Shown piece by piece: positions 1,572-17,578 of a DNA stretch of 35,472 nucleotides. Both the position numbers and the translations under genes were made by a program. The stretch covers positions 1 to 35,472 of the forward strand of contig JAITOL010000151.1 of the NCBI GenBank assembly GCA_031289955.1, in the 5' to 3' direction. Below the pieces are notes generated by a model. The model was given only the letters and a program-made list of their open reading frames with translations, was not told the origin of the DNA and searched no databases. The stretch comes from Synergistaceae bacterium (lineage in GTDB: Bacteria; Synergistota; Synergistia; Synergistales; Synergistaceae). Every line of letters starts with the position of its first letter. Position 1 is the stretch's first letter.

Positions 1572-1898
1572 ATGAGCAAGTTTACCGATTTTTATAAGAA
1601 GGTCACAACCGACAAAGCGCTTGCAACCGAGTTCACCGCGATAATGAAGGCTCACAACGTCAAAGAGGGCGCGACATTCACGGATCTGGACGACGCAACG
1701 TTGATGGCACTCGAGCCGCTAAGCAAGAAGGCGGGTTTCGCCTTCACGCTCGCTGAAGCGAAGGAATATCTGTCGAAAAAAAGCGGCGACGAGATGTCCG
1801 AGGACGAACTCGAAGCAGTGGCCGGCGGCAAGGGCACACAAACGCAAACGAGCTGCGGAGTTGCCGGTACGACAATTACTATGGACTTTCACCTCTAA
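1572..1898 (+). CDS. Nif11-class RiPP precursor peptide 1
   Basis: Substrate peptide of 108 residues. The 86-residue leader opens MSKFTDFYKK, has the helical Nif11-type body (alternating Leu/Ala and acidic residues) and ends DELEAVAGG, a double-Gly site of the type cut by C39 peptidase exporters. The 22-residue core starts KG, is rich in Thr and Gly, has one Cys and ends in DFHL. GGGAGG (1558-1563) lies 8 bases before the ATG. It is the first full gene of the operon and is separated from the next gene by a 345-base spacer with a large hairpin, an arrangement that could let the precursor be made in excess of the enzymes. The core differs from those of the three downstream precursors except for the Lys just after the Gly-Gly. 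Confidence 0.9.
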   Translation: MSKFTDFYKKVTTDKALATEFTAIMKAHNVKEGATFTDLDDATLMALEPLSKKAGFAFTLAEAKEYLSKKSGDEMSEDELEAVAGGKGTQTQTSCGVAGTTITMDFHL

Positions 1899-2243: not shown

Positions 2244-3176
2244 TTGAAGGCTACCGCGACGACCACAGGGGTCAACATACGGAAAATATCGCCTGACGAG
2301 TTTTACGAAATATATGGTGATGTAAACCGCAGGGCTCTTTACTACATCAGGAACATAGGTAAGGATGGGTTCGTCTTATCTTCTTTCGATGAATACGATC
2401 CTATGGGCTATCTCATTTGCAGAGCGGATCGCAGCGCAAACAGACTCTTAGCGCAAATTGTAAACGTGCTGGATAAATATCGTTTATGCGGGACATGCTC
2501 CCGGTTACTCAGCGAGGCGGAGACAATTTGCGGCGAAATACGCTTGGAAGCTGTAAAGATCTGCGTTGCTGGAAACGATCCAGGGTGTGGCTTTATAAGC
2601 GATTTTTTGATAAGAAAAGAGTACGCGATAACGGACAAAGTGCGGATATTCCGTTGTGGTGAACAGGACTACCGAGGTTGGGATGAATATATGGCGCGCA
2701 CTGGCGGCAGGCTCATTCGGTGGCTGGAGGAGGATGGTTTCAGCGCCGTGACGTTCGAAAATGCCAAAGACGCGGTAATGACGGAACTTCGCGAGTCTGC
2801 CTCGAATGAATTCGGGAACAATCTTGAAATATCGCCCTTTCTTGATGGCGAGGGCTGCAACATTTTGAGGTCTGTAAGTTCGGTCGCGCTGAAGGAAGAA
2901 CATCCGGTCGCGTATTGCCTCGTTACCGGCCCCGATGTCGTGAGCGCGGTATTCGAGCAAATATCTGTAGCGAAGGCGTACAAGAACACAGGCGTTTTAC
3001 TGCTGACTATAGCCGAATCGATGCGGCGCTTCAAGGAATTTGGATACAGGAGGGCCGCGTATGCTATTTACGACAGCAACACCTCCGCGCTCGCCTTCGC
3101 GAGAAAAATTTTATACAGGATGACAAGCGTCGAAAAAATACAGCTCAATTTCGAAAAAAAAATAGGCAGAATATAA
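2244..3176 (+). CDS. Tandem-GNAT N-acyltransferase, likely precursor-peptide lipidation enzyme
   Basis: Predicted cytoplasmic acyltransferase of 310 residues. The TTG at 2244 is chosen because GGAGGG (2229-2234) sits 9 bases upstream; the only earlier candidate (TTG at 2211) has no such site. Two GNAT-like halves can be seen: a diverged one (about residues 15-145, ending in a FLIRKEY strand) and a better conserved C-terminal one (about 215-295). The latter has the acyl-donor-binding strand-loop-helix region around AKAYKNTGVLLL and the terminal DSNTSALAFARKILY helix. It directly precedes the ACP gene, so acyl-ACP is the probable donor and a Nif11 precursor the probable acceptor. GNAT-type enzymes acylate RiPP peptides in the goadvionin and selidamide pathways (known); the role here is inferred. 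A different GNAT substrate or self-immunity by acetylation are alternatives. Confidence 0.75.
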   Translation: MKATATTTGVNIRKISPDEFYEIYGDVNRRALYYIRNIGKDGFVLSSFDEYDPMGYLICRADRSANRLLAQIVNVLDKYRLCGTCSRLLSEAETICGEIRLEAVKICVAGNDPGCGFISDFLIRKEYAITDKVRIFRCGEQDYRGWDEYMARTGGRLIRWLEEDGFSAVTFENAKDAVMTELRESASNEFGNNLEISPFLDGEGCNILRSVSSVALKEEHPVAYCLVTGPDVVSAVFEQISVAKAYKNTGVLLLTIAESMRRFKEFGYRRAAYAIYDSNTSALAFARKILYRMTSVEKIQLNFEKKIGRI

Positions 3177-3221: not shown

Positions 3222-3509
3222 ATGGCTGATCTTTCCGGCCTCGAAGGGAAAATAGCTCGGAAGATAGTAGAAAGGCTTGAATTGACCGATATGGACGCGG
3301 ATTCGATATCTGAGGACGCTTCGCTCTTTGAATCCGTGAAGGGAGAGGGCGAAAATATAGGTCTCGATTCCGTTGACGGGCTCGAACTTGTTGTTCTGAT
3401 CTATGAGGAGTGGGGTATAAAGGTGAACGCGAACGACATGCCAAACCTCACGACCATAAGGCGCATAGCTGATTATATCAGGAAATGCTCCGGAGACGCC
3501 AATAAATGA
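3222..3509 (+). CDS. Acyl carrier protein dedicated to the cluster
   Basis: Small acidic four-helix carrier of 95 residues that holds the growing acyl chain on a phosphopantetheine arm. The attachment Ser is in GLDSVDGLEL (about residue 51), the usual DSxxxxEL context; the loop before it is longer than in primary-metabolism AcpP. The C-terminal helix ends with TTIRRIADYI, a common ACP ending. The ATG at 3222 is preferred over the GTG at 3219; GAGGG (3204-3208) and GGTG (3211-3214) lie upstream. Its stop overlaps the start of the ketosynthase gene (ATGA), which indicates translational coupling. No phosphopantetheinyl transferase gene lies in the window, so activation must rely on the host enzyme. 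Confidence 0.88.
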   Translation: MADLSGLEGKIARKIVERLELTDMDADSISEDASLFESVKGEGENIGLDSVDGLELVVLIYEEWGIKVNANDMPNLTTIRRIADYIRKCSGDANK

Positions 3510-4708
3510 ACCGAGCCGCTAAAAGGACTGCTATAACTGGGATTGGGGTTGTCGCTTCCAATGGGCGAGGGCGGGACGTTTTTTTTAAAAGCTGTTCGGA
3601 AGGCTTGACCGGGTTTGTAGAGTGTAAACTTTTTTCTACGGAAAAACTCTCGACCAGGCAATTCGGCGAAATCAGCGGCGATTTTCCGCCCGCCTCCGCC
3701 TCGCCGACCTGCGATACCAGGTTGAAGTCGCTTGCCCGAGAAGCCCTCGCGGAAGCGATGAGCGACGGTGGCCTCAACAGAGCGCAAATAGCGGCGCTGG
3801 GAACGAGGGCATGGCTGTGCTTCGGAACGCTACTGGCCACAACGGATCCCATAATGGAATACGCGACGGCGAAAAAATCGGGGAAAACCCTCCCTGGATA
3901 TCTGGAGAATATCAACGACTATTTGCCCCATCTCCGCGATCTGTGCGGCGTAAAGGGCGCATCCTTCGTGAGTTCGGCTGCCTGTGCCGCCAGTACGATG
4001 GCGGCCGGAATGGCATACGACTTCATCGGAAATGGGATGTGCGATCTTTGTGTCGTTGGCGGCGCCGATCCCCTGACCAAGATGGCAGCCTACGGATTTC
4101 ACTCCCTTAAATTGCTGAGCGGAGGCTTGTGCAATCCATTCGACGAGAACCGCGACGGAATAAACATAGGGGAAGGTGCGGCATTTTTTATCTTCGAGGA
4201 GTACGAGGCCGCATTGTCGCGCGGCGCGCGCATATACGCCGAAGTTATGGGCTATGGGCTCGCGAACGACGCGTATCACGTGACAAGCCCCGATCCTGAG
4301 GGACTCGGCGTGATACACGCTATGAAGGAATCTCTGCGCGAAGCCGGACTCGTCGCTGGGGATGTGTCCCACGTGAACGCTCACGGCACAGGAACGCCAA
4401 TAAACGATCAGATGGAACTCCAGGCCATTGAAAAATTGTACGGCGACGCAAAAAAACCAAGCATAACTTCGACGAAGGCGCTCATCGGTCACTGCATGGG
4501 GGCATCCGGAGCTATTGAGCTTGCCGCCCTCGTCATGGCAGTGAAAAACCAGGCGTATATGCCGCTGCCGAACCTCGAACGCCCGATAGAGACTGATTGT
4601 TTCATCGACTCAGTCGCGTGCCCCTATGAGATTAATTATGGCGTTTCTAATTCATACGCTTTCGCCGGCAATATCGCGAGTGTCCTCGTGGGGAGATCTG
4701 AGAGATGA
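3506..4708 (+). CDS. Beta-ketoacyl-ACP synthase (FabF-like, catalytically complete)
   Basis: Condensing enzyme of 400 residues that extends an acyl chain with malonyl-ACP by decarboxylative Claisen condensation. The complete Cys-His-His triad is visible: Cys160 in SSAACAAS, His293 in NAHGTGT and His329 in ALIGHCMGASGA, at positions close to those of FabF. The thiolase fold opens with TAITGIGVVASNG. It is coupled by ATGA overlaps to the ACP gene upstream and the dehydratase gene downstream. The next condensing-type protein in the operon lacks the triad, so this is probably the active half of a KS/KS-like heterodimer, as in type II polyketide and aryl polyene systems. A simple FabF homodimer is the alternative. 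Confidence 0.9.
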   Translation: MNRAAKRTAITGIGVVASNGRGRDVFFKSCSEGLTGFVECKLFSTEKLSTRQFGEISGDFPPASASPTCDTRLKSLAREALAEAMSDGGLNRAQIAALGTRAWLCFGTLLATTDPIMEYATAKKSGKTLPGYLENINDYLPHLRDLCGVKGASFVSSAACAASTMAAGMAYDFIGNGMCDLCVVGGADPLTKMAAYGFHSLKLLSGGLCNPFDENRDGINIGEGAAFFIFEEYEAALSRGARIYAEVMGYGLANDAYHVTSPDPEGLGVIHAMKESLREAGLVAGDVSHVNAHGTGTPINDQMELQAIEKLYGDAKKPSITSTKALIGHCMGASGAIELAALVMAVKNQAYMPLPNLERPIETDCFIDSVACPYEINYGVSNSYAFAGNIASVLVGRSER

Positions 4709-5148
4709 CTGGCCCGATCAACAGGGACGGAGTCATGAAGGCGCTTCCGCACAGAGGCGCGATGCTGATGATAGATTGCGTGACAGAGCTTGAATATGGG
4801 CGTATGGCGATTGGATACAAGGATATTGGGGAGAGGGAGTTTTGGTGCGACGGCCACTTCCCCGGCGAGCCGATATTTCCCGGAGTGCTAGTGATAGAGA
4901 TTATGGCTCAAATATCGGCCATGGCATTTTACAGGGAGGACGAGCCCGCAACAAAACTATACCTGGCCAAGGTCGACAGCGTCAAATTTTTGTCGAAGGT
5001 GACGCCGAACTGCCGTCTTTTCGCCGAGGCTGCATTGGATGTTGAAGGCGCCGGATTTTTCAGGCTGAAGTGCAGAGCGTTCATGGAAGGTAAGGACGTA
5101 GCGGTCGGAACGCTGACGTGCTATATCAGACGAGATAACAAAGAATGA
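4705..5148 (+). CDS. 3-hydroxyacyl-ACP dehydratase (FabZ-like hot-dog fold)
   Basis: Dehydratase of 147 residues that removes water from 3-hydroxyacyl-ACP to give a trans-2-enoyl chain. The catalytic His51 lies in GHFPGEPIFPGV and the catalytic Glu65 in VLVIEIMAQ, with the 14-residue spacing and Glu typical of FabZ rather than FabA, whose equivalent is Asp. The early LPHRGAMLMID block is also typical. The start overlaps the KS stop and its own stop overlaps the next start (ATGA both times). No enoyl reductase is encoded nearby, so if the set acts iteratively the double bonds may remain. Confidence 0.9.
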   Translation: MTGPINRDGVMKALPHRGAMLMIDCVTELEYGRMAIGYKDIGEREFWCDGHFPGEPIFPGVLVIEIMAQISAMAFYREDEPATKLYLAKVDSVKFLSKVTPNCRLFAEAALDVEGAGFFRLKCRAFMEGKDVAVGTLTCYIRRDNKE

Positions 5149-6215
5149 TCGATTTCAAGACAGCGATAAACGGAATAGGAATGATAAGTGCGGCCGGGAC
5201 GGATGTTAAATTCTTGAGCAAACGTTTGAACGGCGATGGCCTCGGTTGGCGCGTCACGAAACAATCGCGTGAGACAGTGTTTGATGCTGGCGTTCCAGCA
5301 CAAAAACTGAGAAGAGTGAATCGCTACTCCAGACTTGCGGTTGCGGCTGCCGTTCAGTCGTTGCGCGATGCTGGAGAATCGGGCAGAACCGCCGATCCAT
5401 TTCGCGGCGGAACCATCTTCACTACGGGATATGGTTCGATGTCGTCTAACGTAGCCTTCTGCCTGTCCGTGGCCGAGGGGGAACCGGATCTGTGCGGCCC
5501 GTCTCTTTTCTCTGGCACAGTCGCGAACGCCTGCGTCGGCCAGGTCTGCATCCAATTGAACATGAAGGGGCCGAGCACCGTTTTGATAGGAGGCAATATT
5601 TTCCTTTACTCGAAGTTACTCCTGGAAATGGACAGGGCGGATGTCATCTTCGCCGGCGCGGTCGAGGAGTACGATGCGGATTTATTCGCGTCTCTCGAAA
5701 AAAATGAGATCGCCTCAGGCGTATGCATCAATGAAGCTACGGTCGTATTCGCGCTCGGGCAAAGGAATGAAGCTTCGCGCTGCCTGGTCGGTGAAAGTTC
5801 GGTCTCAGCTCTCAGCGGATACCCCCTCGTAAAGAGGCTTAGTGACGAGGAGTCGGAAATGAGTATGAGACTGGCGTTGCGGGAATGTCTTGATAAAAAC
5901 GGCGGCGCCGATGTCGTTTTGTCCTCCGCGAACGGATCGTATTTCGACGAGATTGAAGCCCGCGCCATCGCGGTTGAAGCGCCATATGCAGAGGTCGCGC
6001 ACGGCGTGAAGGGATTTTTCGGAGAGACTATGGGGGCGGCGTTTTCCATGAACGTTGCGGCAGGTGCGCTCTGTTTGACGGATCGCTGTTTCGCGGAGGG
6101 GCTTGGCGTGTCGCGCGCTCCGGATAAAATTCTGGCAGCAGGATACGACCCGATAGGAAACTATAATTGTATCGTTTTGTCTAAGAACGGACGGGGTGAC
6201 GATGGGACTGCTTGA
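5145..6215 (+). CDS. Ketosynthase-like protein without catalytic triad (chain-length-factor-like)
   Basis: Thiolase-fold protein of 356 residues, about 45 shorter than the active KS. It keeps landmarks of the fold: AINGIGMISAAGT at the start, GTIFTTGYGSM in the first half, and KGFFGETMGAA near the end. The nucleophile position is occupied by Asn (about residue 151 in LIGGNIF), the first His motif reads SSANGS, and the second His is Glu in FFGETMGA. It therefore cannot condense on its own. Clustered next to an active KS, ACP, KR and DH, it is best read as the non-catalytic partner that shapes chain length, as chain-length factors do in type II PKS. A decarboxylase role is less likely without any triad residue. 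A degenerating duplicate is an alternative, but the frame is intact and coupled on both sides. Confidence 0.78.
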   Translation: MIDFKTAINGIGMISAAGTDVKFLSKRLNGDGLGWRVTKQSRETVFDAGVPAQKLRRVNRYSRLAVAAAVQSLRDAGESGRTADPFRGGTIFTTGYGSMSSNVAFCLSVAEGEPDLCGPSLFSGTVANACVGQVCIQLNMKGPSTVLIGGNIFLYSKLLLEMDRADVIFAGAVEEYDADLFASLEKNEIASGVCINEATVVFALGQRNEASRCLVGESSVSALSGYPLVKRLSDEESEMSMRLALRECLDKNGGADVVLSSANGSYFDEIEARAIAVEAPYAEVAHGVKGFFGETMGAAFSMNVAAGALCLTDRCFAEGLGVSRAPDKILAAGYDPIGNYNCIVLSKNGRGDDGTA

Positions 6216-6939
6216 AGGGAAGAGGGCCATAATCACCGGAGGTTCAAGGGGGATAGGCCTCGCATGTGTCAAGTCCTTTTTGGCGGAAGGGGCAAGCGTT
6301 GCCGCCACTTACAATTCAGCGGAGGGAGGACTACTGGAGCTTGTGGAAGGCGAGTACAGCGAACGCGTGTCGGTTCACAGGCTCGATATACGCGACAAAA
6401 GCGCAGTCGAAAGAATATCATCCGAGATGACCGAACTTCTGGGCGGTCTGGACATCCTCGTGAACAACGCCGGCGTGAGCCGCCCATCTCTTTTCATGAC
6501 AATTACGGACGAGCAGTGGGATGAAGTTTTACAAACGAACATATGCGGCGCGTATCTAATGCTGAAACAACTGCTATTCCCCATGATGTCCAAGAAAAGG
6601 GGTTCTGTGATAAACGTGGCTTCTGTGAATGGCCTTCGGGCTAATCCAGGGCAGGCAGCTTACTCCGCGTCGAAAGCCGCTCTGATAAGCCTGACTCAAA
6701 CGCTTTCGAGGGAACTAGCCGGCAGAGGGATTCGATTCAACGCTGTGGCGCCTGGGTATGTAGAGACGGATATGACGTCGGCAATTCCGGCGAAACAGCG
6801 CGAGGAATTCATAAAACAGATTCCGATGAAGCGCTTTGGACTTGTAGCCGAAGTAGCTGATGCAGTGACGTTCCTCGCGAGCGACAGGGCGAGTTATATA
6901 ACCGGACAGACGCTCATCGTGGATGGCGGCCTGTGCTGA
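6202..6939 (+). CDS. 3-oxoacyl-ACP reductase (FabG-like short-chain dehydrogenase)
   Basis: NAD(P)H-dependent ketoreductase of 245 residues that turns the 3-ketoacyl product of the KS into a 3-hydroxyacyl-ACP. The classical SDR set is complete: TGGSRGIG (residues 12-19) for cofactor binding, NNAG (88-91), Ser141 and Tyr154-x3-Lys158 in AYSASKAA for catalysis, and the FabG ending TGQTLIVDGG. The start at 6202 overlaps the previous gene by 14 bases; a GTG at 6196 is an alternative. The stop lies 20 bases before the second precursor gene, which shows that the acyl-chain genes and peptide genes form one operon. Confidence 0.92.
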   Translation: MGLLEGKRAIITGGSRGIGLACVKSFLAEGASVAATYNSAEGGLLELVEGEYSERVSVHRLDIRDKSAVERISSEMTELLGGLDILVNNAGVSRPSLFMTITDEQWDEVLQTNICGAYLMLKQLLFPMMSKKRGSVINVASVNGLRANPGQAAYSASKAALISLTQTLSRELAGRGIRFNAVAPGYVETDMTSAIPAKQREEFIKQIPMKRFGLVAEVADAVTFLASDRASYITGQTLIVDGGLC

Positions 6940-6959: not shown

Positions 6960-7295
6960 ATGAGCAAGTTTGTGGATTTCTACAACAAAATAAATTTGAA
7001 CGACGCTCTAAGAACAGAGTTCACCAGAGTGATGAAAGAGCGAGGGGTGCCCGAGGGTACGTCGTTCGAGGATCTGGATGAGGGTACTCTGGCGGCGCTC
7101 GAACCGGTGGCAAACCGCGCCGGCATCAGCTTTAAGCTGAGCGAGGCGCTCGCGTACTTCTCAAAAAAAGAAGGGGGCGAGCTGTCGGATTTCGAACTCG
7201 AGGCTGTGGCCGGAGGGGCCAAGTGTGTACCGGATAAGGTTGAGTATACATGGGTGGATTCGACTGGCAGCTATACTGGAGGCAAAACGTCATAA
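6960..7295 (+). CDS. Nif11-class RiPP precursor peptide 2
   Basis: Precursor of 111 residues with an 86-residue leader opening MSKFVDFYNKINL and ending FELEAVAGG. The 25-residue core begins AKC and contains two Lys near the start, one Cys, a Tyr and a Trp, then a Ser/Thr/Gly-rich end. AAGGAGGG (6947-6954) precedes the ATG closely. Its stop codon shares a base with the next ATG (TAATG at 7293-7297). Leader and position mark it as a paralogue of precursor 1 that arose by duplication with core divergence. It is the only one of the four with Ala rather than Lys at core position 1; its Lys is at position 2. Confidence 0.9.
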   Translation: MSKFVDFYNKINLNDALRTEFTRVMKERGVPEGTSFEDLDEGTLAALEPVANRAGISFKLSEALAYFSKKEGGELSDFELEAVAGGAKCVPDKVEYTWVDSTGSYTGGKTS

Positions 7296-7645
7296 TGAAT
7301 AAGTTCTTAAACTTCAGGGACAAGCTTACGTCAGACGGCAAATTGGCGGCGGAGTACGGCGAGATTATAAGGCGTCGAGGAATAGCTAAAGGAACGAATT
7401 TCTCGGATCTCGACGATTCGACGATAAGCGAAATCATTCAGGCGGCGGTTCGGGCCGGTTTCGATTTCACTATCGAGGAAGTCAGAAAATACTTTGCGAG
7501 TGATTCCCAGGACGAACTTTCGGATGCCGAGCTCGAGAGTGTGGCGGGAGGAAAAGGAGGATCAAAGACAACTTTGACCATCGACTTATACTATAACGAA
7601 AAGGGTGAATTTGTGGATGAATGGACAACGTCCAAAAAGAGCTGA
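7295..7645 (+). CDS. Nif11-class RiPP precursor peptide 3
   Basis: Precursor of 116 residues. The start at 7295 is chosen over an in-frame ATG at 7250 because GGAGG (7278-7282) lies 12 bases upstream and because it yields a leader of exactly 86 residues, the same as the other three. The leader opens MNKFLNFRDK, is the most diverged of the set, and ends AELESVAGG. The 30-residue core begins KGGSK, has two adjacent Tyr, acidic residues and a Trp, and finishes with two Lys and Ser. It contains no Cys, so thioether chemistry cannot be a requirement common to all four cores. Confidence 0.88.
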   Translation: MNKFLNFRDKLTSDGKLAAEYGEIIRRRGIAKGTNFSDLDDSTISEIIQAAVRAGFDFTIEEVRKYFASDSQDELSDAELESVAGGKGGSKTTLTIDLYYNEKGEFVDEWTTSKKS

Positions 7646-7671: not shown

Positions 7672-8013
7672 ATGAGCAAGTATATCGATTTTTATAACAA
7701 AATTAGCGCCGACGCGAATTTCACTGCTGAATACAAGAAAATCATGGAGGAAAAAAGAATTCCTTCCGGAATGCCATTTTCGGCGCTTCCTATCGACACG
7801 CTGAAGGCGTTGATTCCTCTCGCGACGAGTGCTGGGTTTGATTTTACGCTCGAGGAGTTGCAAGCCCGTTTTTCAAAGAAATCCGCTGACGATTTGTCGG
7901 ATGATGAACTCGAAGCTGTGGCTGGAGGCAAGGGCAAAGTTCCCGATAATGTCATTATAGTCGCTCATGCTTGGGATGCCCCCGACAATCCGCACAATCC
8001 GGCGAATATTTGA
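7672..8013 (+). CDS. Nif11-class RiPP precursor peptide 4
   Basis: Precursor of 113 residues; AAGGAG (7658-7663) lies 8 bases before the ATG at 7672. The 86-residue leader opens MSKYIDFYNK and ends DELEAVAGG. The 27-residue core begins KGKVPDN, has a hydrophobic centre with His and Trp, and a Pro/Asn-rich tail (DNPHNPANI). It lacks Cys, Ser and Thr, so lanthionine-type chemistry is impossible on this core. It lies just upstream of the radical SAM gene, which follows after a 23-base gap. Confidence 0.9.
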   Translation: MSKYIDFYNKISADANFTAEYKKIMEEKRIPSGMPFSALPIDTLKALIPLATSAGFDFTLEELQARFSKKSADDLSDDELEAVAGGKGKVPDNVIIVAHAWDAPDNPHNPANI

Positions 8014-8036: not shown

Positions 8037-9410
8037 ATGAAGCGATTTCGCCTTGGAAAGAATTTCGCATTGAGGGGGTGGGACAGGCTGCCTTATGCGG
8101 TCGTCGATTTGAGGAACGGTGAGGCCGTTTTTTTGACGCGAGGCCAATTTCAGCCCCTCTATGACCTTCTTTTAAACGGTGTCTCGCATGAGGAAGAATC
8201 CCTGGAGGTATATGACGACTTAGTTAGCATGGGCGTAAATCGCGGTTTTCTGGAGGAGCACCGCACGGGGACATCCTTGGCGGCATATCAGGAGTACAAA
8301 AGGGCTGACTGCCGCTATATAAAAAGTGTACAGTGGTCGATAACGGACGGATGCAACCTGAAGTGCCGCCATTGCTATGTCAACGCCTCGGATGCGAAGC
8401 GAGTTCAACCCTCCATCCAAGACTGCCTGGGCATAATCGATCAGTTTGAGCGCGCAAACGTGGCAGCGGTGTCGCTCACCGGTGGAGAACCACTCATTCG
8501 GGCTGACTTTTGGGATATCGTCGATGCTCTTTTAGAAAAAAGGATAGCGGTGACGGAGCTTTTCACGAACGCCCTCTTAATAGATGAGCATTTTCTGGAC
8601 GAATGCTCGAAAAGGTCTCTATCGTGGGTTTTCTATGTCAGCTTCGATGGAGTGGGATATCACGACTGGTTGAGGGGGAAGGCCGGAGTCGAGTCGAGGG
8701 TCGTGGATGCGATAAAACAGATAAAGGCAGCAGGATTTTACGTTGCTGTGAACACGACTCTTCACGGGGATAACGTTGTTTCCCTCCGCCAAACTTACGA
8801 GTTCTTGAAAGAACTCGGCATTGACGCGTGGAAAGCGTGCACTGTGATGAACTCGGGCCGCTGGGCTGGAGAGACGGATAAGCGTGAAATTTGCGTTTCC
8901 GACCTCTATAATTCATTCCTTGACATAATAGGCGAGTACCGTCGCGATGGTATGCCGATGACTCTCTCGCTTGGTGGTTTTTTCACCTGTGCGAGAGATA
9001 GCGGCGATTGGAGCTCGTCATATCATAAGCGCTCGGGGACAGAGAGAGCTCTAAATCTACCGGTCTGTGGAGCGTGTAGGACGCATATTTATCTCGCGCC
9101 GGGCGGAGAAGTCCTGCCCTGCATCCCTACGGTCGGAACCAGTCTGGAGGACGATGCTCCCAATATAATGAACACGCCGCTTACTGAGATATTGAGCGAT
9201 TCGGAATTTTTTGAGCTCATTGATACACGACTCGGCGCATCGTTCGAAAAAAACCCGATTTGCGGCAATTGTGAGTTCCGCCTCAAATGCGGTCCATGCA
9301 GAGCCGCAGCTCTGCATGAAACAGGCAGCTTCAATGGATCGGACAAATTGGCCTGTGCCTATTGGCATGGGGGCTATCCAGAAAAAATAAAGCAAGTTTT
9401 TGAAGCGTGA
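8037..9410 (+). CDS. Radical SAM/SPASM RiPP maturase with N-terminal recognition-like region
   Basis: Radical enzyme of 457 residues, likely acting on the Nif11 cores. The [4Fe-4S]-SAM motif CNLKCRHC has Cys106, Cys110 and Cys113 (CxxxCxxC), followed by LTGGEP (147-152). The C-terminal SPASM region holds Cys344, 347 and 362, then Cys409-x2-Cys412-x5-Cys418-x2-Cys421 and Cys440, enough for two auxiliary clusters. Residues 1-90 (VVDLRNGEAVFLT onward) look like a PqqD/RRE-type winged-helix leader-binding domain. No good ribosome binding site precedes 8037; coupling to precursor 4 or an earlier in-frame start (TTG 8010, ATG 7971) are options. Known activities of the family include C-C and C-S crosslinks, epimerisation and peptide excision; which applies here cannot be told from sequence alone. 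Confidence 0.88.
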   Translation: MKRFRLGKNFALRGWDRLPYAVVDLRNGEAVFLTRGQFQPLYDLLLNGVSHEEESLEVYDDLVSMGVNRGFLEEHRTGTSLAAYQEYKRADCRYIKSVQWSITDGCNLKCRHCYVNASDAKRVQPSIQDCLGIIDQFERANVAAVSLTGGEPLIRADFWDIVDALLEKRIAVTELFTNALLIDEHFLDECSKRSLSWVFYVSFDGVGYHDWLRGKAGVESRVVDAIKQIKAAGFYVAVNTTLHGDNVVSLRQTYEFLKELGIDAWKACTVMNSGRWAGETDKREICVSDLYNSFLDIIGEYRRDGMPMTLSLGGFFTCARDSGDWSSSYHKRSGTERALNLPVCGACRTHIYLAPGGEVLPCIPTVGTSLEDDAPNIMNTPLTEILSDSEFFELIDTRLGASFEKNPICGNCEFRLKCGPCRAAALHETGSFNGSDKLACAYWHGGYPEKIKQVFEA

Positions 9411-9538: not shown

Positions 9539-12500
9539 TCAAGCCTTTTGTCTTGTCTGCCCCCAGCAAAAGATTGAGAAGGTCAGCGCTATCGAGGCTA
9601 TCAATATGCTGAACGCCGCTATGATGTTTTGGGCGTTCAGCAGTATGCCGAAAACCAACGGTCCCCCAGCGTATCCAAGGCTTTCGATAAAGTTGTAGAT
9701 CACCATCTCTGTTCCTGCGCCAGCGCTCTTCGTCGCCGACATCTCGGTAAAGTAGAGAGGGAAACAAGTGCCTCCCGCGCTGTTGGAACAACCCATTATA
9801 AATACTGCGACCAGCATCGCGCCTGTTGACTGTAAAATAGCGAAGCAGAGAACGGCGGCAAGTCCGGATAGAACCGGGACGAGAAGGCGTGCCAAGTTGC
9901 TTGGGTTCGCATCTTTCACAATTGATGCAAGTTTGGGACCGAACATCGCCCCAACGCCGTAAAGGACGAAAACAAGGCTTATCTCAGACTCGGAGAGTCC
10001 ATTTCCGTCTCCGAAAATAGGGACCAAGTAATACAGAAAACCGCTCAAAATCGAATATGGGAAGAGCAGCAAGAATAAAAATCCCAGAATGGCAAGAGGC
10101 GAGCGACGAACGAAGGCGATTTTGCTTGAAGGATGAGCACTTGGCACATGCCGTTCTTCGGCGTCGCTTGTTCCCCGTTTTTCTTTTTTAGTGATAAACA
10201 TGAAAGCGGCCAGTGCTAGCAACCACAAAAACGATCCCATGTAATAAACGGCGCTCTGATTAAAATATACCGCGACAGCTCCTCCAACCATGATGCCGCA
10301 GTTAATTCCGGTAAAACTGGCGACCGTAAACATCGAGAACCCGACCGCCCTATCATCCGGATGTTTCAGAGACGCTACGTAAACATGTATGACAGTGAAT
10401 AAAAAACCGGCACACAAACCAGTAGCGCTCATTCCCCAAAAAAGCGTATAAATGGACGTGGCGCTTGCGTTCATCGCCTCCCCCAATACTCCGAACAGTG
10501 CGCCAATTACGAAAGACCGCTTTATTCCAATCCAGACGATCAGTTTAGCGCACAGGAGTGGCCCTACGGCGAGCATGACATGACCAGCGGTCAGCGGCAA
10601 AACAGACGAAAACTCATAAGACAGGTTCCAGAGTGATCCGCCCATTGTTGCCGCATAATTTGGGGCAAAACCAGATGATAAATTAAAAATGAGGAAAATG
10701 GCAAATGTAATCGGACTGATGCAGGAGACCGGCAAGAACAATCCTCTTCTTCTCTCATCGGCTATAGGATCTTTCAAACTCGTTAAAGGCAGAGATTCGA
10801 GTATCTCAGATAGCAGAAAGAGCATGATCGAGATGATCAACAGAGTCCTGACTATCATTGTTCTGAATTGCCGATATATCATTTCCTCGAAGGGACCCAA
10901 TTCGACTCCCATCTCCAGAATGCCAATAACCTCATTTCCTCTCTTGTCAAAGATTGGGCCGGTCAAGGATATGTAAGTTCCACTCACATCCTGTTGACCT
11001 ATATTTGTAATCCAAGCTCCATCTTTCGATATTTTGTGTGCGTCTGACCCTTCAAACTTGTCAGGAAGGGAAAACGCTCCTATCGACCCATCCAAAAAAG
11101 CTGTCACATACAGAATATCGTCCTGAAATTTATAGGCGACGCAGTACTTGTTTTCGTTCCACTCGTATTCTCTGTCAACGAGATTATTTAGAGACTGTGT
11201 GAATTTTTGGTATGCGGGGCTGTCATAGTCCTGAGGGGTTTTGATTGCGGCAAATGATTCGGAATCCAGGATTTTAGGCGATACCTGCATCATATATGAT
11301 AAACGATTCAAAGTTTCGCTTCTCATGTCAGATCGCAGCGCCCCGAGAATACTAGGCGTAATTGAGAAAAATACGAGGGAGGTGACGAGTATGATTACAA
11401 AACCAAACCATTCTTTTTGAGATAATTTTCTAATATAGAGATAGGAAAACGCTATTTTAAGGACTATGAGGGTCGATACTATGAAAATCACAAAAACGAC
11501 TGTCAACGCGGTTCTAAATGCTACGATGGCGTCTCCGACCGGCAGAGTGGAAATGTTAAATTTCTCAATCCCATCCGCCATGTCGGCGATTACTACTGAT
11601 TCAAGGCTGGTCAGCGTCAGCAAGCCTCGCGCCGCATATACCGAATTGTAAACCACCGGCCATAGAGAATCGATGTCACCCCAGCCGCCCATTACCTTCC
11701 TTGCTTGCCCTGCGTCATCAACGCAAAGGACAGCTCGTTTGCCGATATCGGTAAAGTAAAGACTGGCGCCGTCGCAGGAAATCTGAAACGGCAGTGAAAA
11801 TTCGCTTGCTCTATTGCCTGAAACTGGAACAAAAATAGCATGTACATCATCCGACGTCGAGTGGAATATATTCCCGGACTTGTCAGTATAGTAGATGCTT
11901 CTTTTTACAGGGTCTATTGAAAAATCAAAAATCTTTTTGATGGCATCATTATATTTGCCAACGTATTCTATCATTGATTCAGGAGTTTCGCCTTTGCGAG
12001 CAATTTTATCAACCTTCACCGCCAAACTTATTACGATATAGGAGTTTATTGTTTTTTTAACGAACCATATCTTTTCGTCGCTGTAAATCAACCCGTCCAA
12101 TGCCTGCATGGATGACAAACCCGGCGCTAATTCTTCGTCTTTAGTCCGATCGGCAACGTATAAGACTCTTCCGGCAACGCCGTTTTTCTTGCTGAACTCC
12201 AAAATCCTTTCAGCTTCCATCTTCATCCCTGTTGCATCCCAGATCACGTCGTGAACGTAGAAATAATCCTCATTCTCAACCGAGATATCACACACGCTGA
12301 AAAACGGCGTATCGTTACCTCCACCTTCAATTATATAGTCAGCGTAGCCTTGGGCACTTCTTTTGATGATACGTGCCCTGCCATTGTCAACAACATAGGT
12401 ATCTCCAAAGGAGTCTGTTTTTGCTGTAAAAATATTGGAGAAAACGACCTCACTATAAGGATTCCAAGACAGCGAGCCGGAATAGTTGTATATAGTCGCA

Positions 12501-12544
12501 AAAGACGCTAGCAAAACAGCAAGAATGATAAGAGCTTTCTTCAT
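9539..12544 (-). CDS. Periplasmic sensor (propeller-like plus Cache-like) fused to an MFS transporter
   Basis: Inner-membrane protein of about 1001 residues. The ATG at 12544 has GAGG 8 bases upstream. Visible order: N-terminal membrane anchor (about 3-20); a large extracytoplasmic region (30-335) of repeated beta-strand units such as SIYYTDKSGNIF and SLYFTDIGKRAVL, resembling NHL/beta-propeller blades; two membrane segments (345-372, 380-402); a second extracytoplasmic domain (403-560) resembling a Cache/CHASE sensor, ending GILEMGVELG; another membrane helix (563-585); then a roughly 12-helix MFS-like domain (605-1000). Ordinary MFS proteins have about 400-450 residues. It is the last gene of the export operon, so it may sense or export the product, give self-resistance, or act as a receptor. 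Function is inferred only from architecture and position. Confidence 0.72.
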   Translation of the reverse strand: MKKALIILAVLLASFATIYNYSGSLSWNPYSEVVFSNIFTAKTDSFGDTYVVDNGRARIIKRSAQGYADYIIEGGGNDTPFFSVCDISVENEDYFYVHDVIWDATGMKMEAERILEFSKKNGVAGRVLYVADRTKDEELAPGLSSMQALDGLIYSDEKIWFVKKTINSYIVISLAVKVDKIARKGETPESMIEYVGKYNDAIKKIFDFSIDPVKRSIYYTDKSGNIFHSTSDDVHAIFVPVSGNRASEFSLPFQISCDGASLYFTDIGKRAVLCVDDAGQARKVMGGWGDIDSLWPVVYNSVYAARGLLTLTSLESVVIADMADGIEKFNISTLPVGDAIVAFRTALTVVFVIFIVSTLIVLKIAFSYLYIRKLSQKEWFGFVIILVTSLVFFSITPSILGALRSDMRSETLNRLSYMMQVSPKILDSESFAAIKTPQDYDSPAYQKFTQSLNNLVDREYEWNENKYCVAYKFQDDILYVTAFLDGSIGAFSLPDKFEGSDAHKISKDGAWITNIGQQDVSGTYISLTGPIFDKRGNEVIGILEMGVELGPFEEMIYRQFRTMIVRTLLIISIMLFLLSEILESLPLTSLKDPIADERRRGLFLPVSCISPITFAIFLIFNLSSGFAPNYAATMGGSLWNLSYEFSSVLPLTAGHVMLAVGPLLCAKLIVWIGIKRSFVIGALFGVLGEAMNASATSIYTLFWGMSATGLCAGFLFTVIHVYVASLKHPDDRAVGFSMFTVASFTGINCGIMVGGAVAVYFNQSAVYYMGSFLWLLALAAFMFITKKEKRGTSDAEERHVPSAHPSSKIAFVRRSPLAILGFLFLLLFPYSILSGFLYYLVPIFGDGNGLSESEISLVFVLYGVGAMFGPKLASIVKDANPSNLARLLVPVLSGLAAVLCFAILQSTGAMLVAVFIMGCSNSAGGTCFPLYFTEMSATKSAGAGTEMVIYNFIESLGYAGGPLVFGILLNAQNIIAAFSILIASIALTFSIFCWGQTRQKA

Positions 12545-12649
12545 CTCTGTCACCTCTTCATCGATGGAACTTGATTTTTCTCCTTCTCAAGCAAGGGTTC
12601 GTACTCCATATCTCGATGTTAGCGATAAAACTAATCTTTAGTTTGCTTA

Positions 12650-14026
12650 TTATATATACTCCTTGTTTTCCCGCATAGAGTTAAAAATAGTAGCAGTCCC
12701 GCTCTTGCCGAGCTTCTCCGGGTATAGAACGCCATGAAGGGATAATGACGTTCCATGTGCCTGAGAGCACTTGCGAAGAGAATCGGCCTCGTCCATAGAA
12801 TCCACCTGGAGGACATTTCCGATTCCCCACAGATAAAGAGGGAGCGCCGGGTAGAAAATATAATCCGTCACGGACTCGATATTTTCCGGCTGGTTGCTAA
12901 TCGCCTTGATACTCCGCCCCGAGGTGAAGCGCGAGTAAAAAGGCGCACGTGCCCTGTAAAAGAGTTCCAGAACCTCTTTGTCCCTGTCGTGAACAACGGC
13001 TAGTTTCGGTGGTTTGAATAAGTCAGCGAGTTCGCATATCACATCGCGATAGATATCCGATATTTTATGCAATTCTCCCATAAATGACTCGATCACTCGG
13101 CGGCGCAATTTTCCATCCAACCTCTCCGTAATAGCATCGAGATATTTTTTGTATGACATGTCGGGAAGTGGTATTATGACTGGAGCGTTGAGCGCGGCGG
13201 CAAATTCAAATGGTAGGCGAATAGATTCATACTCCTGAAGCGTCATGCGCGTTTTTCTGTTCTCAAAGCTTATATCCTCAATATATCGGCTGTATTCTCG
13301 GATGTGCGCGCCCATATCCGCCTTTCCATTCGAACGGTTGTAATATTTTCCCGTATTGTAATCGAAGCTGAAAACTCTGCCGTCATTGTGGCGCACGAGA
13401 ACCAACATCTCGTCTGTTCCAAAAAGGCAAGGACCGCCTATGACCGCTATTTTCTCTCCACGTTTGTTTATTTTTTCGGAAAGTTCCCCAAAGTTTCTGG
13501 TAAAGAGCGGGACGGTCTCGATTCTGCCTGAGATCGAACCTATCTCAGGCAATAGCCGTTTCATGTTCGAAAACGTGTTACAGAGAACGGTGCCTTTATA
13601 TATAAGGCCTTTCATAGCGCAATCCTCAGCGGAAGCCTTCAGTTTTTCCAGCTCATTCGAGATGTTGTTTTTTTCGCCTCGCAACTCTCGTATGGCAGCC
13701 ATTACCGACATTCCCTCCTCGGTCAATTCGCTGCTGACAAAGAGTTTTTCCCGCTTGCTATACTCGCGAAGCTCCTGTAGCTCGTTGACTATTTTTACAA
13801 GTTTTGACGATAGATATTCATCGCTTTGGTTGTGTTGAGGGCTCTGTTCGGGTTTTTCAAAATTTTTCGAGAGGGCGAAATCATTTTTGTATTTTTCTAT
13901 GTCGGCCACCTCGAAAAAATTCCCAGCCTCGAAAGGCTTGTTCAGAATATCTTCATAGTTCAAGTATGGCGTTTCCTGTACATCGATTCCTTGTTCAAAA
14001 AGGATTTGCGCTATGGTAACAAGCAT
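12650..14026 (-). CDS. Unrecognised protein in the export operon
   Basis: I do not recognise this 458-residue soluble protein. No signal peptide or membrane helix is evident. Residues about 60-150 are rich in Glu, Lys and Leu and could form a coiled coil. The middle has a Gly-rich stretch IAVIGGPCLFGTDEM followed by a beta-rich section with paired Asp-Gly turns (HNDGRVFSFDYNTGK), and the end has CSQAHGTSLSLHGVLYP with a Cys and two His. It overlaps the preceding metalloprotein gene by 16 bases, which implies coupling and a joint function. It could be a cytoplasmic maturation or export accessory factor. No strong ribosome binding site precedes the ATG. Confidence 0.7.
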   Translation of the reverse strand: MLVTIAQILFEQGIDVQETPYLNYEDILNKPFEAGNFFEVADIEKYKNDFALSKNFEKPEQSPQHNQSDEYLSSKLVKIVNELQELREYSKREKLFVSSELTEEGMSVMAAIRELRGEKNNISNELEKLKASAEDCAMKGLIYKGTVLCNTFSNMKRLLPEIGSISGRIETVPLFTRNFGELSEKINKRGEKIAVIGGPCLFGTDEMLVLVRHNDGRVFSFDYNTGKYYNRSNGKADMGAHIREYSRYIEDISFENRKTRMTLQEYESIRLPFEFAAALNAPVIIPLPDMSYKKYLDAITERLDGKLRRRVIESFMGELHKISDIYRDVICELADLFKPPKLAVVHDRDKEVLELFYRARAPFYSRFTSGRSIKAISNQPENIESVTDYIFYPALPLYLWGIGNVLQVDSMDEADSLRKCSQAHGTSLSLHGVLYPEKLGKSGTATIFNSMRENKEYI

Positions 14027-14871
14027 TTTGCTTTAGTCATCTCCATGTTTTTAATTCCGCGTATTCCAGCCGACGCTAGTTTTATCACCAGATCCGGCTC
14101 GTTTTCGATGTCCCTCATCTCGCTGTTATTGTCCAGATACGTCTCAAGGGCATCAAGCGCCTCATTCAAATGCCGGCACACAATCGGAACCGCCTCAAAC
14201 GGAAGTTTTTTTACGTAGAACATCAAGCGTCCGCCGTCCTTTATGAATTGGCCGTCGTCGGATAGTCCAAAAAATTTTCTCTGAAGCGAAGCGCTGAAAC
14301 TCCCTAGCGCAGCGAGCTGCCCGATGCAATCTGCCACTATTTCATCGAGGATATGGTTTTTCATTCCTCCAAGGGCTCTCAATGTAAAGTAATGGCAACA
14401 TTCGTGGCGCAGACGGATCACGGCTGATTTTTCAACCCAGTCATCCTCAGGAATGCCTGCGTCATTTCCAGAGAGGGCGCTGTAGCCCGACTTGTTCAGC
14501 AAAATGACCCGGTGTCCGCTCATTTCGGGAAGTTTAACAGGCACTGTGAAAGCGTTCACCGATAAAGGGAGGTTGAAGGCGCTGGCCTTCACAGTAAAAA
14601 TCGCGTAGAGACGCTCGAACGATGACCGTTCGGAAACGTATGCCACAGGTATCCTGCCGGCTGCTGTTTTCTCGATCCAGCAACTCACCTTATCGGTTTT
14701 TAATATTTCTGTGATAGCGCCTGGAAAATCGAAGCGACCCTGGAGCCATCTCTCCCACTCATCGATGAAATCCTCGTCGGGAAGGGGGAATATCAAGTTC
14801 TTCGGAATTTCGTAGCAATGTTCCAGATATTGGAGAGCAGCTTCTGAAGCTGAAGAATCAGGCAATTTCAT
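14011..14871 (-). CDS. Putative zinc metalloprotease-like protein (HExxH...ExxxD)
   Basis: Protein of 286 residues with HECCH at 156-160 and, 16 residues on, EIVAD at 177-181. This HExxH plus ExxxD layout resembles the gluzincin zinc site of thermolysin-like peptidases, in which the two His and the second Glu bind zinc and the first Glu is the base. No signal peptide is seen, so it should act in the cytoplasm. The start is uncertain: an AGGGAGG at 14874-14880 is only 2 bases from the ATG at 14871, better spaced for a TTG at 14865, and an upstream ATG at 14919 would overlap the ABC gene. It lies between the exporter and an unknown protein, so precursor trimming or leader degradation is plausible, though a non-peptidase role remains possible. 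Confidence 0.65.
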   Translation of the reverse strand: MKLPDSSASEAALQYLEHCYEIPKNLIFPLPDEDFIDEWERWLQGRFDFPGAITEILKTDKVSCWIEKTAAGRIPVAYVSERSSFERLYAIFTVKASAFNLPLSVNAFTVPVKLPEMSGHRVILLNKSGYSALSGNDAGIPEDDWVEKSAVIRLRHECCHYFTLRALGGMKNHILDEIVADCIGQLAALGSFSASLQRKFFGLSDDGQFIKDGGRLMFYVKKLPFEAVPIVCRHLNEALDALETYLDNNSEMRDIENEPDLVIKLASAGIRGIKNMEMTKAKCLLP

Positions 14872-14878
14872 AACCTCC

Positions 14879-17578
14879 CTACGCCAATTGTCTTCTTGCC
14901 AGCTTAGCGAAGAGGCCATCCATCTTCATGAGGGTGTTGAAATCCCCTTCCTCGGCTATTTTGCCTTCGTTAAATACCAGTATCCGGTCCGCGTTCCTGA
15001 TGGTGCTCAAGCGATGCGCGACTATCAGCCTCGTTGCGCTCATTTTGTCCATGCTCTCGGTGACGATGGATTGAGTCGTGTTGTCGAGTGCGCTTGTGGC
15101 CTCGTCCAACACGACGATCTTTGGTCTGTTAGCGATGCTGCGCGCGATCAATATTCTCTGCCGCTGTCCTCCTGAGATGTTGCCCGCTCCCTCGCTGATA
15201 ACGGTGTGCATTCCCATCGGCATATTCGAGATATCCTTGTCGAGACCTACCATCCTTGCGGCTTCCCAAGCGTCATCCAGCGTGAGGGGAGAGGAACCCA
15301 CTATGTTATTGAAAATATCGCCGGCGAAGAGCTGTCCGTTTTGCAGGACGACACCCATCTGAGACCTCACAGAAGTAACGTTGAGCGTCGAAAAATCCTG
15401 ACCGTCGTAATAAATTGCACCTTGAGAAGGTTTCTCGAACCCTAAGAGTATGCGGAGCAACGTCGATTTCCCACAGCCGGACGGGCCTACGAGGGCAATA
15501 GATTCACCGGCCTTGACATGAAATGATATGCCGTCGAGAACCATGGGGGAATCAGGAGCGTAACTGAAGTGTAGGTTCTTCACCTCTATTGCTCCCGAGA
15601 GAACCCCAACGTCCATCTTATCGTCGGTCACTTCCGGTTCGGCTTCGAGAATTGGTTTTATGTTTTCGACGTAGGGTTTCACGTTAAATATACCAGCGAC
15701 AACCGGTATAAATGCGACAAGCGTGGCATTGAACCCGGCGAAAGCGGTTTGAAAACCCATGAACTTCGCATAGTCGAGCGCTGGCAGAGCTCCTTCGGGA
15801 GTCTCCAACACAAGCGCTACCGCTACATAATAAAAAATCATGGTCATGATTATCGGCTGAATCGAGTTAAACAGGGACGTATAGTTGGTATACCAACGAA
15901 TCTTGAGATTCCATTTCCATTCCTCACCGAACGCCTTGGACCACATATTGAAGGCCGCGGGCTCGCCTCCCTGGAGCCTGAATTTCGAAAGCCCGTTCAG
16001 AACCTGAAGTGTTCTTGCGGAGGAAAGGTTGGACGCCTCGACATGTTTGCCGCGAAAGGCCATCATTTTCTTATACAAAAACCCGGATATGAGGATGTAC
16101 ACTATCCAAGCCGCCGTAGCCATAACGGTAAGCCTGACACTGTAATACATCATCAGGAGGAGACTCCAGAAGGAGAAAATGGTGTTGAATATCGCCGAAA
16201 GCGTGACCTCTCCGAACAATTCGGTAATGGCGGCCACTCCCTGCATCCTATTGACAAGATCGCCGGCCTCGTACTTTCTGAAAAAACTTGCCGGCAGACT
16301 CAGCAGTCTCGACCACAGGGCTGATTCCAGTGATGTCCTGACATGGTTTTTTATACGCAAAAAGGCGACGCTCCTCGCGAAAGAGAGTATCGCGGTGGTA
16401 AAACCGGAGACGAGCATTACCTGAGCTACAGTCCCAAGAGCCTGGCGATCATTGATGGGTATTATATCCTTGAACACGCTCTCCGTTATCAAAGGCAGAA
16501 CCAGAGCCAATGCGCCGATGAGAAAGCTCATCACCAACACTGTCCAAAAGTCATTTTTCCAGCAATTTCTCAAGGAGAAGCTCACCATGTCCGAAACGTC
16601 GATTTTTTTGGCGGGCAACCCAGGATAGCAGAGAAACGCGTCGCTCTTTATTTTTTTCGCAACCTCCATGTCGACTCGTATCCCGAGCGGATGTTCGGTC
16701 GAATGCAGGAGATATCTTTTAGTACCGTCCGGAATCAACGCGACTATATCACTGGATTCTCCGAAATATCCCAGGATAACCCCCGCATCGCTTTTATGCC
16801 AATTTTGAGAGAGGCTGACGAGGCGCACCTGCATATTGCCCTTTCTTACCAGCCGCCTCATTCTGTCGACAGGATCAAGCTTTGCCGCTATATCGGGAGG
16901 TAGCGATATATTTTCCAAAGCCATGCCGAGGTGACGGGCCGCCATTCTTACCGCGAACAGCGTAGCATCGTCCGCATTGGATGACTCTTCGGCAGCTTCA
17001 ATCGATTTGAATTCCGTTCTAAGAAGGTTGCCCATTGCGGAAAACAGCGTTTTTTCGTTTTGCTTGGAGCGTTTTTCCCTCTTGATCTCTATATTGTTCT
17101 CAAGCGATTTCAAATGGTTCGCTATTACGCTCCGGAGTATCTCCAAATGTTCGTCGAGCGCGCCTTGTACACTCTTCATAGCGCCGCCCACATTAGTGAA
17201 TATGCTTCCGCCGTCCCATTTCGCCAGAACTTCCTCGTCCGTAACCGCGAGCTCTTTTACCCACGACAGATCCGCTAATTTTTTGAACCAACTGGAGGCA
17301 GACGATGACAAGTTTCTCGCGTCATCGAGAGAAGATGGTTCTATCAGGGAATCCTGAACCGCGAACGCTTGAAATTCAAACCTCGCCTCACTATCCGTTG
17401 GCAAAAAAACGTCTCCGGGCGCAAGTTCGGCGAGAAAAACCTTTTGATAATTGCCTCGTCCCTCAGGCGTACAAACGTATATCTCTACGCTCCCGCTTTG
17501 GAGCGTAAAAACGACTCCGTCCTCGCGTCCGATTTTCAAATATTGACTCCTCTTCAGGCTGATAACTGATGTTCCCAT
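14879..17578 (-). CDS. NHLM-type bacteriocin ABC transporter, second subunit (permease-ATPase, no peptidase)
   Basis: Export ATPase of 899 residues, larger than a usual 600-700 residue half-transporter because of a long N-terminal region of some 330 residues. Residues 1-85 resemble a cyclic-nucleotide-binding-like beta roll, as is typical of the NHLM_ABC2 family, followed by a charged helical section. Six membrane helices span about 340-640. The ATPase carries Walker A GPSGCGKST, signature ISGGQRQRI and Walker B IVVLDEATSALD. Its start lies only one base after the stop of the C39-containing subunit, so the two are probably heterodimeric partners in product secretion. Confidence 0.9.
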   Translation of the reverse strand: MGTSVISLKRSQYLKIGREDGVVFTLQSGSVEIYVCTPEGRGNYQKVFLAELAPGDVFLPTDSEARFEFQAFAVQDSLIEPSSLDDARNLSSSASSWFKKLADLSWVKELAVTDEEVLAKWDGGSIFTNVGGAMKSVQGALDEHLEILRSVIANHLKSLENNIEIKREKRSKQNEKTLFSAMGNLLRTEFKSIEAAEESSNADDATLFAVRMAARHLGMALENISLPPDIAAKLDPVDRMRRLVRKGNMQVRLVSLSQNWHKSDAGVILGYFGESSDIVALIPDGTKRYLLHSTEHPLGIRVDMEVAKKIKSDAFLCYPGLPAKKIDVSDMVSFSLRNCWKNDFWTVLVMSFLIGALALVLPLITESVFKDIIPINDRQALGTVAQVMLVSGFTTAILSFARSVAFLRIKNHVRTSLESALWSRLLSLPASFFRKYEAGDLVNRMQGVAAITELFGEVTLSAIFNTIFSFWSLLLMMYYSVRLTVMATAAWIVYILISGFLYKKMMAFRGKHVEASNLSSARTLQVLNGLSKFRLQGGEPAAFNMWSKAFGEEWKWNLKIRWYTNYTSLFNSIQPIIMTMIFYYVAVALVLETPEGALPALDYAKFMGFQTAFAGFNATLVAFIPVVAGIFNVKPYVENIKPILEAEPEVTDDKMDVGVLSGAIEVKNLHFSYAPDSPMVLDGISFHVKAGESIALVGPSGCGKSTLLRILLGFEKPSQGAIYYDGQDFSTLNVTSVRSQMGVVLQNGQLFAGDIFNNIVGSSPLTLDDAWEAARMVGLDKDISNMPMGMHTVISEGAGNISGGQRQRILIARSIANRPKIVVLDEATSALDNTTQSIVTESMDKMSATRLIVAHRLSTIRNADRILVFNEGKIAEEGDFNTLMKMDGLFAKLARRQLA

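Follow-up and report, generated by a model that had tools for sequence, protein, structure and literature searches.

Genes of the acyl-synthase operon

The contig JAITOL010000151.1 of a Synergistaceae bacterium (assembly GCA_031289955.1), analysed over its whole stretch of 35,472 nucleotides (hereafter the window), carries between positions 3222 and 6939 an operon for an acyl carrier protein (ACP), a ketosynthase (KS), a dehydratase (DH), a KS-like protein and a ketoreductase (KR). This acyl-synthase operon is the middle of a Nif11-leader cluster for a ribosomally synthesised and post-translationally modified peptide (RiPP). It follows the gene of a GNAT N-acyltransferase, giving the order GNAT-ACP-KS-DH-KS-like-KR, and Nif11-type precursor genes stand on both sides of it (four in all). 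All five frames of the operon are open, and adjacent genes overlap by 4-14 bases:

3222..3509, plus strand: acyl carrier protein; PP-binding, 1.1e-7; PRK09184, 42.7 bits, below cut-off
3506..4708, plus strand: ketosynthase; ketoacyl-synt, 5e-33; triad Cys160/His293/His329
4705..5148, plus strand: FabZ-type dehydratase; FabA/FabZ, 9e-19; His51/Glu65 intact
5145..6215, plus strand: KS-like protein, chain-length factor (CLF)-type partner; KS N-terminal domain, 4e-5; Foldseek matches
6202..6939, plus strand: FabG-type ketoreductase; TIGR01830, 268.7 bits; YxxxK and NNAG motifs

Catalytic residues are likewise intact in the ACP (Ser50, with a DSxxxLE motif present), the KS (Cys160, His293, Lys324 and His329) and the KR (Ser141, Tyr154 and Lys158). 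The KS-like protein has a nucleophile loop shortened by five aligned residues, with the catalytic Cys gone, and carries Asn263 and Glu294 at the two catalytic His positions, while Lys289 is retained; this pattern is common to all seven homologues. An active KS is therefore encoded together with a homologous partner that has lost the catalytic Cys, the arrangement that characterises type II KS/CLF pairs. The original prediction for this region had described a KS with a triad-less partner, DH, KR and ACP, and the genes, residues and families of this set were confirmed. It had also held that the window encodes no enoyl reductase, malonyl transferase (FabD), KAS III (FabH) or phosphopantetheinyl transferase (PPTase). 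None of these was seen among the translated open reading frames either, and each of them is encoded elsewhere in the genome.

Phylogeny and pairing of the condensing enzymes

Scanning genome contigs with the single KS-like sequence returned nothing, and an alignment of three sequences returned five loci. Overall, the cassette is conserved at seven loci in two phyla (Synergistota and Clostridia). In plasmid sequence searches, the KS-like protein gave distant matches alone, mostly from Streptomyces, and the GNAT gave none.

The operon might be read as ordinary FabF, FabZ and FabG duplicates accompanied by a decayed KS relic, and the KS does score 269 bits against the FabF model, below its cut-off. 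We compared 29 sequences in a maximum-likelihood tree, including the KSs and KS-like proteins of the cassettes, FabFs (the genome's own too), ApeO and KSs of the highly reducing type from Streptomyces. The seven cassette KSs formed one clade (100/100), with the FabFs, including the genome's own, placed elsewhere, and the seven KS-like proteins formed a separate clade (100/100). A tree constrained to join the cassette KS with Synergistota FabF was rejected in the approximately unbiased (AU) test (p-AU 0.0066). A set of duplicates with a relic, against which the identical substitutions in the KS-like protein at seven loci also argue, is thus extremely improbable and was ruled out by the tree and the AU test. 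The condensing-enzyme tree, proposed in advance as a check, accordingly places the KS outside ordinary FabF, and the KS-like protein, whose being a relic had been named beforehand as the refuting outcome, persists in two phyla and has diverged in step with the KS.

Distances among the KSs correlate with those among the KS-like proteins (r = 0.989), and only the true labelling of 5040 reaches that value. For these few and phylogenetically structured loci, the correlation shows co-inheritance, fitting an obligate pair. The pairing holds because the KS clade lies apart from FabF and each KS comes with a co-diverging KS-like protein, and the two would form a heterodimer. The best match of the KS among solved sequences was PDB entry 9s5h (E 9.5e-67), with chain C of this entry among the best for the KS-like protein; chains B and C are a KS/KS-like pair resembling that of the window, in a comparison by sequence only. 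Sequence searches with Streptomyces KSs for solved CLFs returned mostly FabF. In Foldseek, a model of the KS-like protein (pLDDT 59, pTM 0.72) matched condensing enzymes including the actinorhodin and ishigamide KS/CLF and AntDE, so that the modelled fold is that of a condensing enzyme; at pLDDT 59 we claim the fold alone. Together, the sequence comparisons support a dedicated, catalytically dead partner of the KS, distinct from FabF, that would work with the ACP, KR and DH.

The tandem GNAT and the lysine after the leader

Acylation of a peptide would fall to the product of the gene in front of the ACP:

2244..3176, plus strand: tandem GNAT N-acyltransferase, TTG start; Acetyltransf_1, 3.5e-7; Foldseek

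The structure model of the GNAT matched the tandem GNATs 2wpx and 2wpw on top in Foldseek, together with 7q3a and, lower, VipF, and a PDB sequence search gave no match. Its P-loop is recognisable in the N-terminal domain (R80-x-x-G83) and degenerate in the C-terminal domain. The same distribution of a kept and a degenerate P-loop is described for NpuN of the nostolysamide cluster, a tandem GNAT that acylates Lys1 after the GG of a Nif11-leader peptide (PMC13060382). Adjoining a precursor gene and with a predicted tandem fold, the window's GNAT would correspond to the GNAT maturase encoded with a precursor that marks selidamides. The precursor genes are:

1572..1898, plus strand: Nif11-leader precursor 1; TIGR03798, 38.5 bits, over cut-off; leader end ELEAVAGG; core KGTQTQTSCGVAGTTITMDFHL, Lys1
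6960..7295, plus strand: Nif11-type precursor 2; no family match by itself; core AKCVPDKVEYTWVDSTGSYTGGKTS, Lys2
7295..7645, plus strand: Nif11 precursor 3; TIGR03798, 37.2 bits, over cut-off; core KGGSKTTLTIDLYYNEKGEFVDEWTTSKKS
7672..8013, plus strand: Nif11 precursor 4; TIGR03798, 33.7 bits, over cut-off; core KGKVPDNVIIVAHAWDAPDNPHNPANI

Three of these four exceed the TIGR03798 cut-off and all of them end the leader in V-A-G-G, as for Nif11-type leaders; precursor 2 is 64% identical to its orthologue in a genome of the same genus (G008), which aligns with the remaining precursors. Lys stands directly after the GG in 13 of 16 cassette precursors, with Gly always next, compared to none of the 34 other Nif11-type precursors taken from Synergistota (Fisher p 1.6e-9), and in 8/10 compared to 0/22 after thinning (p 4e-6). 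Because the top-scoring Nif11 loci supplied the background and sequences were thinned manually, these p-values are indicative. A separate frame of 42 codons at 1363-1491 (MENIGDEDIDAVSGRIFCSSRRGSCIQIDNRSRVNAAETVWN) has a start resembling a Nif11 leader end and may be a precursor remnant or mini precursor.

Strong homologues of the GNAT (at least 360 bits) were present in exactly those 4 of 188 Synergistota genomes that bear the cassette KS-like gene, and the GNAT gene lies immediately 5' of the ACP gene at five loci in two phyla. Weaker relatives adjoin RiPP precursors without any KS (L060, L061). Both the perfect co-occurrence and the shared gene order argue against independent neighbours, that is, an operon making a free lipid or pigment next to a GNAT that takes ordinary acyl-CoA. 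Such independence would suit genome G135, in which the acyl set and the GNAT with its precursors lie on separate contigs, as well as the selidamide phaeornamide, which bears a fatty acid of primary metabolism (PMC9505594). However, the G135 acyl set (ACP-KS-DH-KS-like-KR) still adjoins the exporter, and we consider independence improbable. Most probably, the chain modifies the RiPP and does not end up as a free polyene or pigment; the RiPP context was absent from the original prediction.

At two further loci (L058:12860-14243 and L061:18887-19901), precursor-like proteins of 220-235 aa combine a repeat-like N-terminal part, crystallin-like by eye, with Cys/Ala/Gly-rich cores behind a GG site. 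Their neighbours are a tandem-GNAT relative and, at L058, a RiPP radical SAM C-methyltransferase, and they possibly represent a new RiPP leader type.

The cassette in Synergistota and Clostridia

The core common to both phyla consists of ACP, KS, KS-like protein and KR. In G008 the cluster is kept with 64-83% identity per protein, precursors included. G180 retains the exporter, DUF7005 protein, GNAT, ACP, KS, DH, KS-like protein and KR until its contig stops; in the stretch searched, its KS-like gene has one reported stop codon. The Clostridia loci (L030, L031/G188 and G428) have KS, KS-like protein and KR and no DH between KS and KS-like gene; L031/G188 and G428 additionally have GNAT, ACP, Nif11 precursors, radical SAM enzyme and exporter, again with no DH in the cassette, and L030 has six Nif11-type precursors; at all three loci, the gene content is that covered by the respective contig.

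Precursor-1-type cores (window 1572-1898, L016:8248-8586 and L030:4882-5922) have in common K-G at the start, one Cys and an end resembling V-G/T...V-T-L, a likeness across two phyla that suggests, at the level of sequence, a single conserved type of mature peptide. In two Clostridia cassettes, a lipoprotein-like gene of the DUF2807 (GIN-domain) type stands between the KR and precursor genes (L030:3003-3782, with a Pfam match, and L047:11994-12857) and may encode an immunity protein.

Chain chemistry

Elsewhere, the window's genome encodes plsX-fabH-fabK-fabD-fabG-acpP-fabF as well as a separate housekeeping FabZ and AcpS. Priming, malonylation and phosphopantetheinylation can therefore come from central metabolism through FabH, FabD and AcpS, in line with the priming that had been predicted, and FabK makes enoyl reduction in trans possible as well. 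The DH of the operon is the second FabZ of this genome; likewise, all four Synergistota cassette genomes have a diverged second FabZ in the cassette beside the housekeeping one. The three Clostridia genomes have one FabZ each, located away from the cassette, and FabK was not found in them at the threshold used, other enoyl reductase types not being sought.

That the missing enoyl reductase implies a polyene, as originally proposed, was not supported. In the polyene version, the same cluster would place a conjugated polyenoyl chain on the peptide through an iterating cycle of KS/KS-like pair, KR and DH. The operon without enoyl reductase and the retention of a dedicated DH in every Synergistota cassette despite the housekeeping FabZ favour this version, and so does the tree, in which ApeO of aryl polyene (APE) synthesis was nearest to the cassette KS (97/94); this sister grouping is weak because ApeO is a long branch. 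The highly reducing-type KSs of Streptomyces did not group with the cassette KS. Against it stand the FabK of the genome and the Clostridia cassettes with no DH. APE clusters, such as that of E. coli CFT073, and highly reducing type II polyketide synthases (PKSs; ishigamide) resemble the window in having a KS with a KS-like protein, ACP, KR and DH and no enoyl reductase. The CFT073 cluster differs, however, in its methyltransferase, lipid acyltransferase, thioesterase, MMPL transporter and second KS, none of which is in the window's gene list, nor was an aromatic starter enzyme of APE clusters seen. We regard a polyenoyl chain as a tentative option, on the unlikely side.

Alternatively, only one or two extension rounds could take place, giving a 3-hydroxyacyl or 2-enoyl group on Lys1. 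The two-phylum core of just ACP, KS, KS-like protein and KR fits such a short chain, as does cispentacin, a small non-aromatic product made by a type II PKS-like set (PMC10698177); the KS matches the cispentacin AmcF model, below cut-off. A CLF-type partner, however, usually accompanies iteration, and the clostridial FabZ could act in trans, which leaves this option rather doubtful too. Since FabK is present in the genome and three Clostridia cassettes have no DH, no single chain type is singled out, and polyenoyl, enoyl, 3-hydroxyacyl and saturated chains are all compatible with the gene content.

Maturation and export genes

Downstream of the precursors, the cluster continues with a peptide maturase and, on the minus strand, with the export genes and three further proteins:

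8037..9410, plus strand: radical SAM/SPASM peptide maturase; Radical_SAM, 1.2e-20; SPASM, 1.6e-4; CNLKCRHC motif
9539..12553, minus strand: 1004-aa protein, MFS C-terminal half; MFS_1, 2e-20
12650..14026, minus strand: 458-aa protein, no family assigned; homologues in G008 (69%) and locus L059 (47%)
14011..14919, minus strand: DUF7005 protein with HEXXH motif (HECCH); PF22541, 124.8 bits
14879..17578, minus strand: NHLP bacteriocin export ABC transporter subunit 2; TIGR03797, 777.8 bits, cut-off 709.4
17580..19763, minus strand: NHLP export ABC subunit 1 with C39 double-glycine peptidase; TIGR03796, 1009.6 bits, cut-off 853.3; Peptidase_C39, 9e-35
19765..20721, minus strand: NHLP-system HlyD adaptor; TIGR03794, 225.2 bits, cut-off 156.2
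20718..21893, minus strand: second HlyD-like adaptor, from its translation; 48% homologue in G135
21890..23251, minus strand: TolC-type outer-membrane channel; PF02321, 2e-49

With the ABC pair, its C39 peptidase and the HlyD adaptor over the cut-offs of TIGR03796, TIGR03797 and TIGR03794, the export genes are those of an NHLP/Nif11 system. The radical SAM/SPASM protein scores under the cut-off of every NCBIfam model shown. The 1004-aa protein has a long non-MFS N-terminal half, is conserved at 24-66% in the G008, G180 and G428 cassettes and is a candidate immunity, efflux or self-sensing transporter. The DUF7005 protein occurs in four cassettes (window, G008, G180 and G188/L031) and could, judging from its HECCH motif, be a second protease or a HEXXH-type RiPP enzyme. 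Locus L059, which holds the more distant homologue of the 458-aa protein, also carries a distant GNAT relative. Immediately upstream of the cluster, positions 2-997 match CagX-type conjugal transfer proteins (117 bits), hinting at a mobile-element neighbourhood.

A predicted route to a lipidated peptide

Overall, we consider it likely that the cluster specifies a lipidated RiPP, with an acyl-ACP supplied by a dedicated type II KS/CLF-like synthase and its chain transferred to Lys1 by the GNAT. KS/KS-like pair, KR, DH and ACP would constitute a synthase of discrete enzymes, with AcpS of the genome producing holo-ACP and FabD loading malonyl. The KS/KS-like pair would extend a primer drawn from central metabolism, the KR would reduce the beta-keto group and the DH could dehydrate. 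The GNAT would then pass the chain from the ACP to the Nif11-leader peptides, onto the amino group of Lys1 or, in one precursor, of Lys2, and the radical SAM/SPASM enzyme would add a second modification, before the NHLP C39 transporter cleaves after the GG and exports the product via HlyD and TolC. In this route we infer the GNAT substrate, the acceptor atom and the length and saturation of the chain, as well as the radical SAM reaction, the export of the acylated form and the biological role.

Several observations weigh against a lipidated RiPP of this kind. In G135, two GG-type precursors share a contig with the GNAT, a RiPP radical SAM C-methyltransferase and a radical SAM/SPASM protein, and the acyl set is on a different one; these precursors have no Nif11 family match and carry Lys at position 2. 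Among the cassette precursors that deviate from Lys1, two have Ala-Lys (Lys2) and one (L031) has neither. The L030 contig measures 6 kb, and a GNAT was not found in the genome to which it is assigned. Confidence in the GNAT structure model is modest (pLDDT 67), NpuN is described with acyl-CoA in vitro (PMC13060382), and acyl-ACP as the donor in the window is argued from gene adjacency.

Comparison with known lipidated RiPPs

GNAT-lipidated RiPPs (selidamides, nostolysamides), PKS-RiPP hybrids (goadvionins, lipolanthines) and RiPPs with non-modular fatty acid synthesis (lipoavitides) are already known. In goadvionins, a modular type I PKS builds the chain. As in the predicted product of the window, goadvionins and lipolanthines carry a polyketide or acyl chain on a RiPP, attached in goadvionin by a dedicated acyltransferase; in contrast to the window, they are class III lanthipeptides that bear the lipid at the N-terminus (PMC13060382). 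Lipoavitides likewise join dedicated non-modular fatty acid synthesis genes to a RiPP pathway and are set apart as class III lanthipeptides with N-terminal acylation (PMC13060382), whereas the window has a Nif11 leader, radical SAM enzyme, NHLP export and predicted Lys1 side-chain acylation. Selidamides/nostolysamides (npu) share with the window the Nif11-type leader with GG, the C39 transporter, the tandem GNAT and Lys as first core residue, but have a lanthionine synthetase and long-chain acyl groups that are not cluster-made (PMC13060382). The window differs in its radical SAM/SPASM enzyme and dedicated KS/KS-like acyl synthase, and no lanthionine synthetase was seen in it.

The searchable literature yielded no description of a KS/KS-like synthase combined with Nif11 precursors, a radical SAM enzyme and NHLP export. 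In our view it is an even call whether Synergistota and Clostridia share a lipidated RiPP family whose KS/KS-like synthase assembles a custom, perhaps polyenoyl, chain on the cluster's ACP, for direct transfer by the GNAT to Lys1 of Nif11 peptides modified by the radical SAM enzyme; such a family would be the first type II KS/CLF-to-RiPP hybrid with this layout. There are few lipidated RiPPs, and lanthipeptides make up almost all of the examples named in the literature consulted. If our reading is true, a cluster with its own chain maker would itself set the lipid, raising the question whether a GNAT can accept acyl-ACP from a KS/CLF-type synthase. The signature of Lys1 after GG offers a simple handle for mining further systems, and the cassettes point to an unexplored source of lipopeptides in gut anaerobes.

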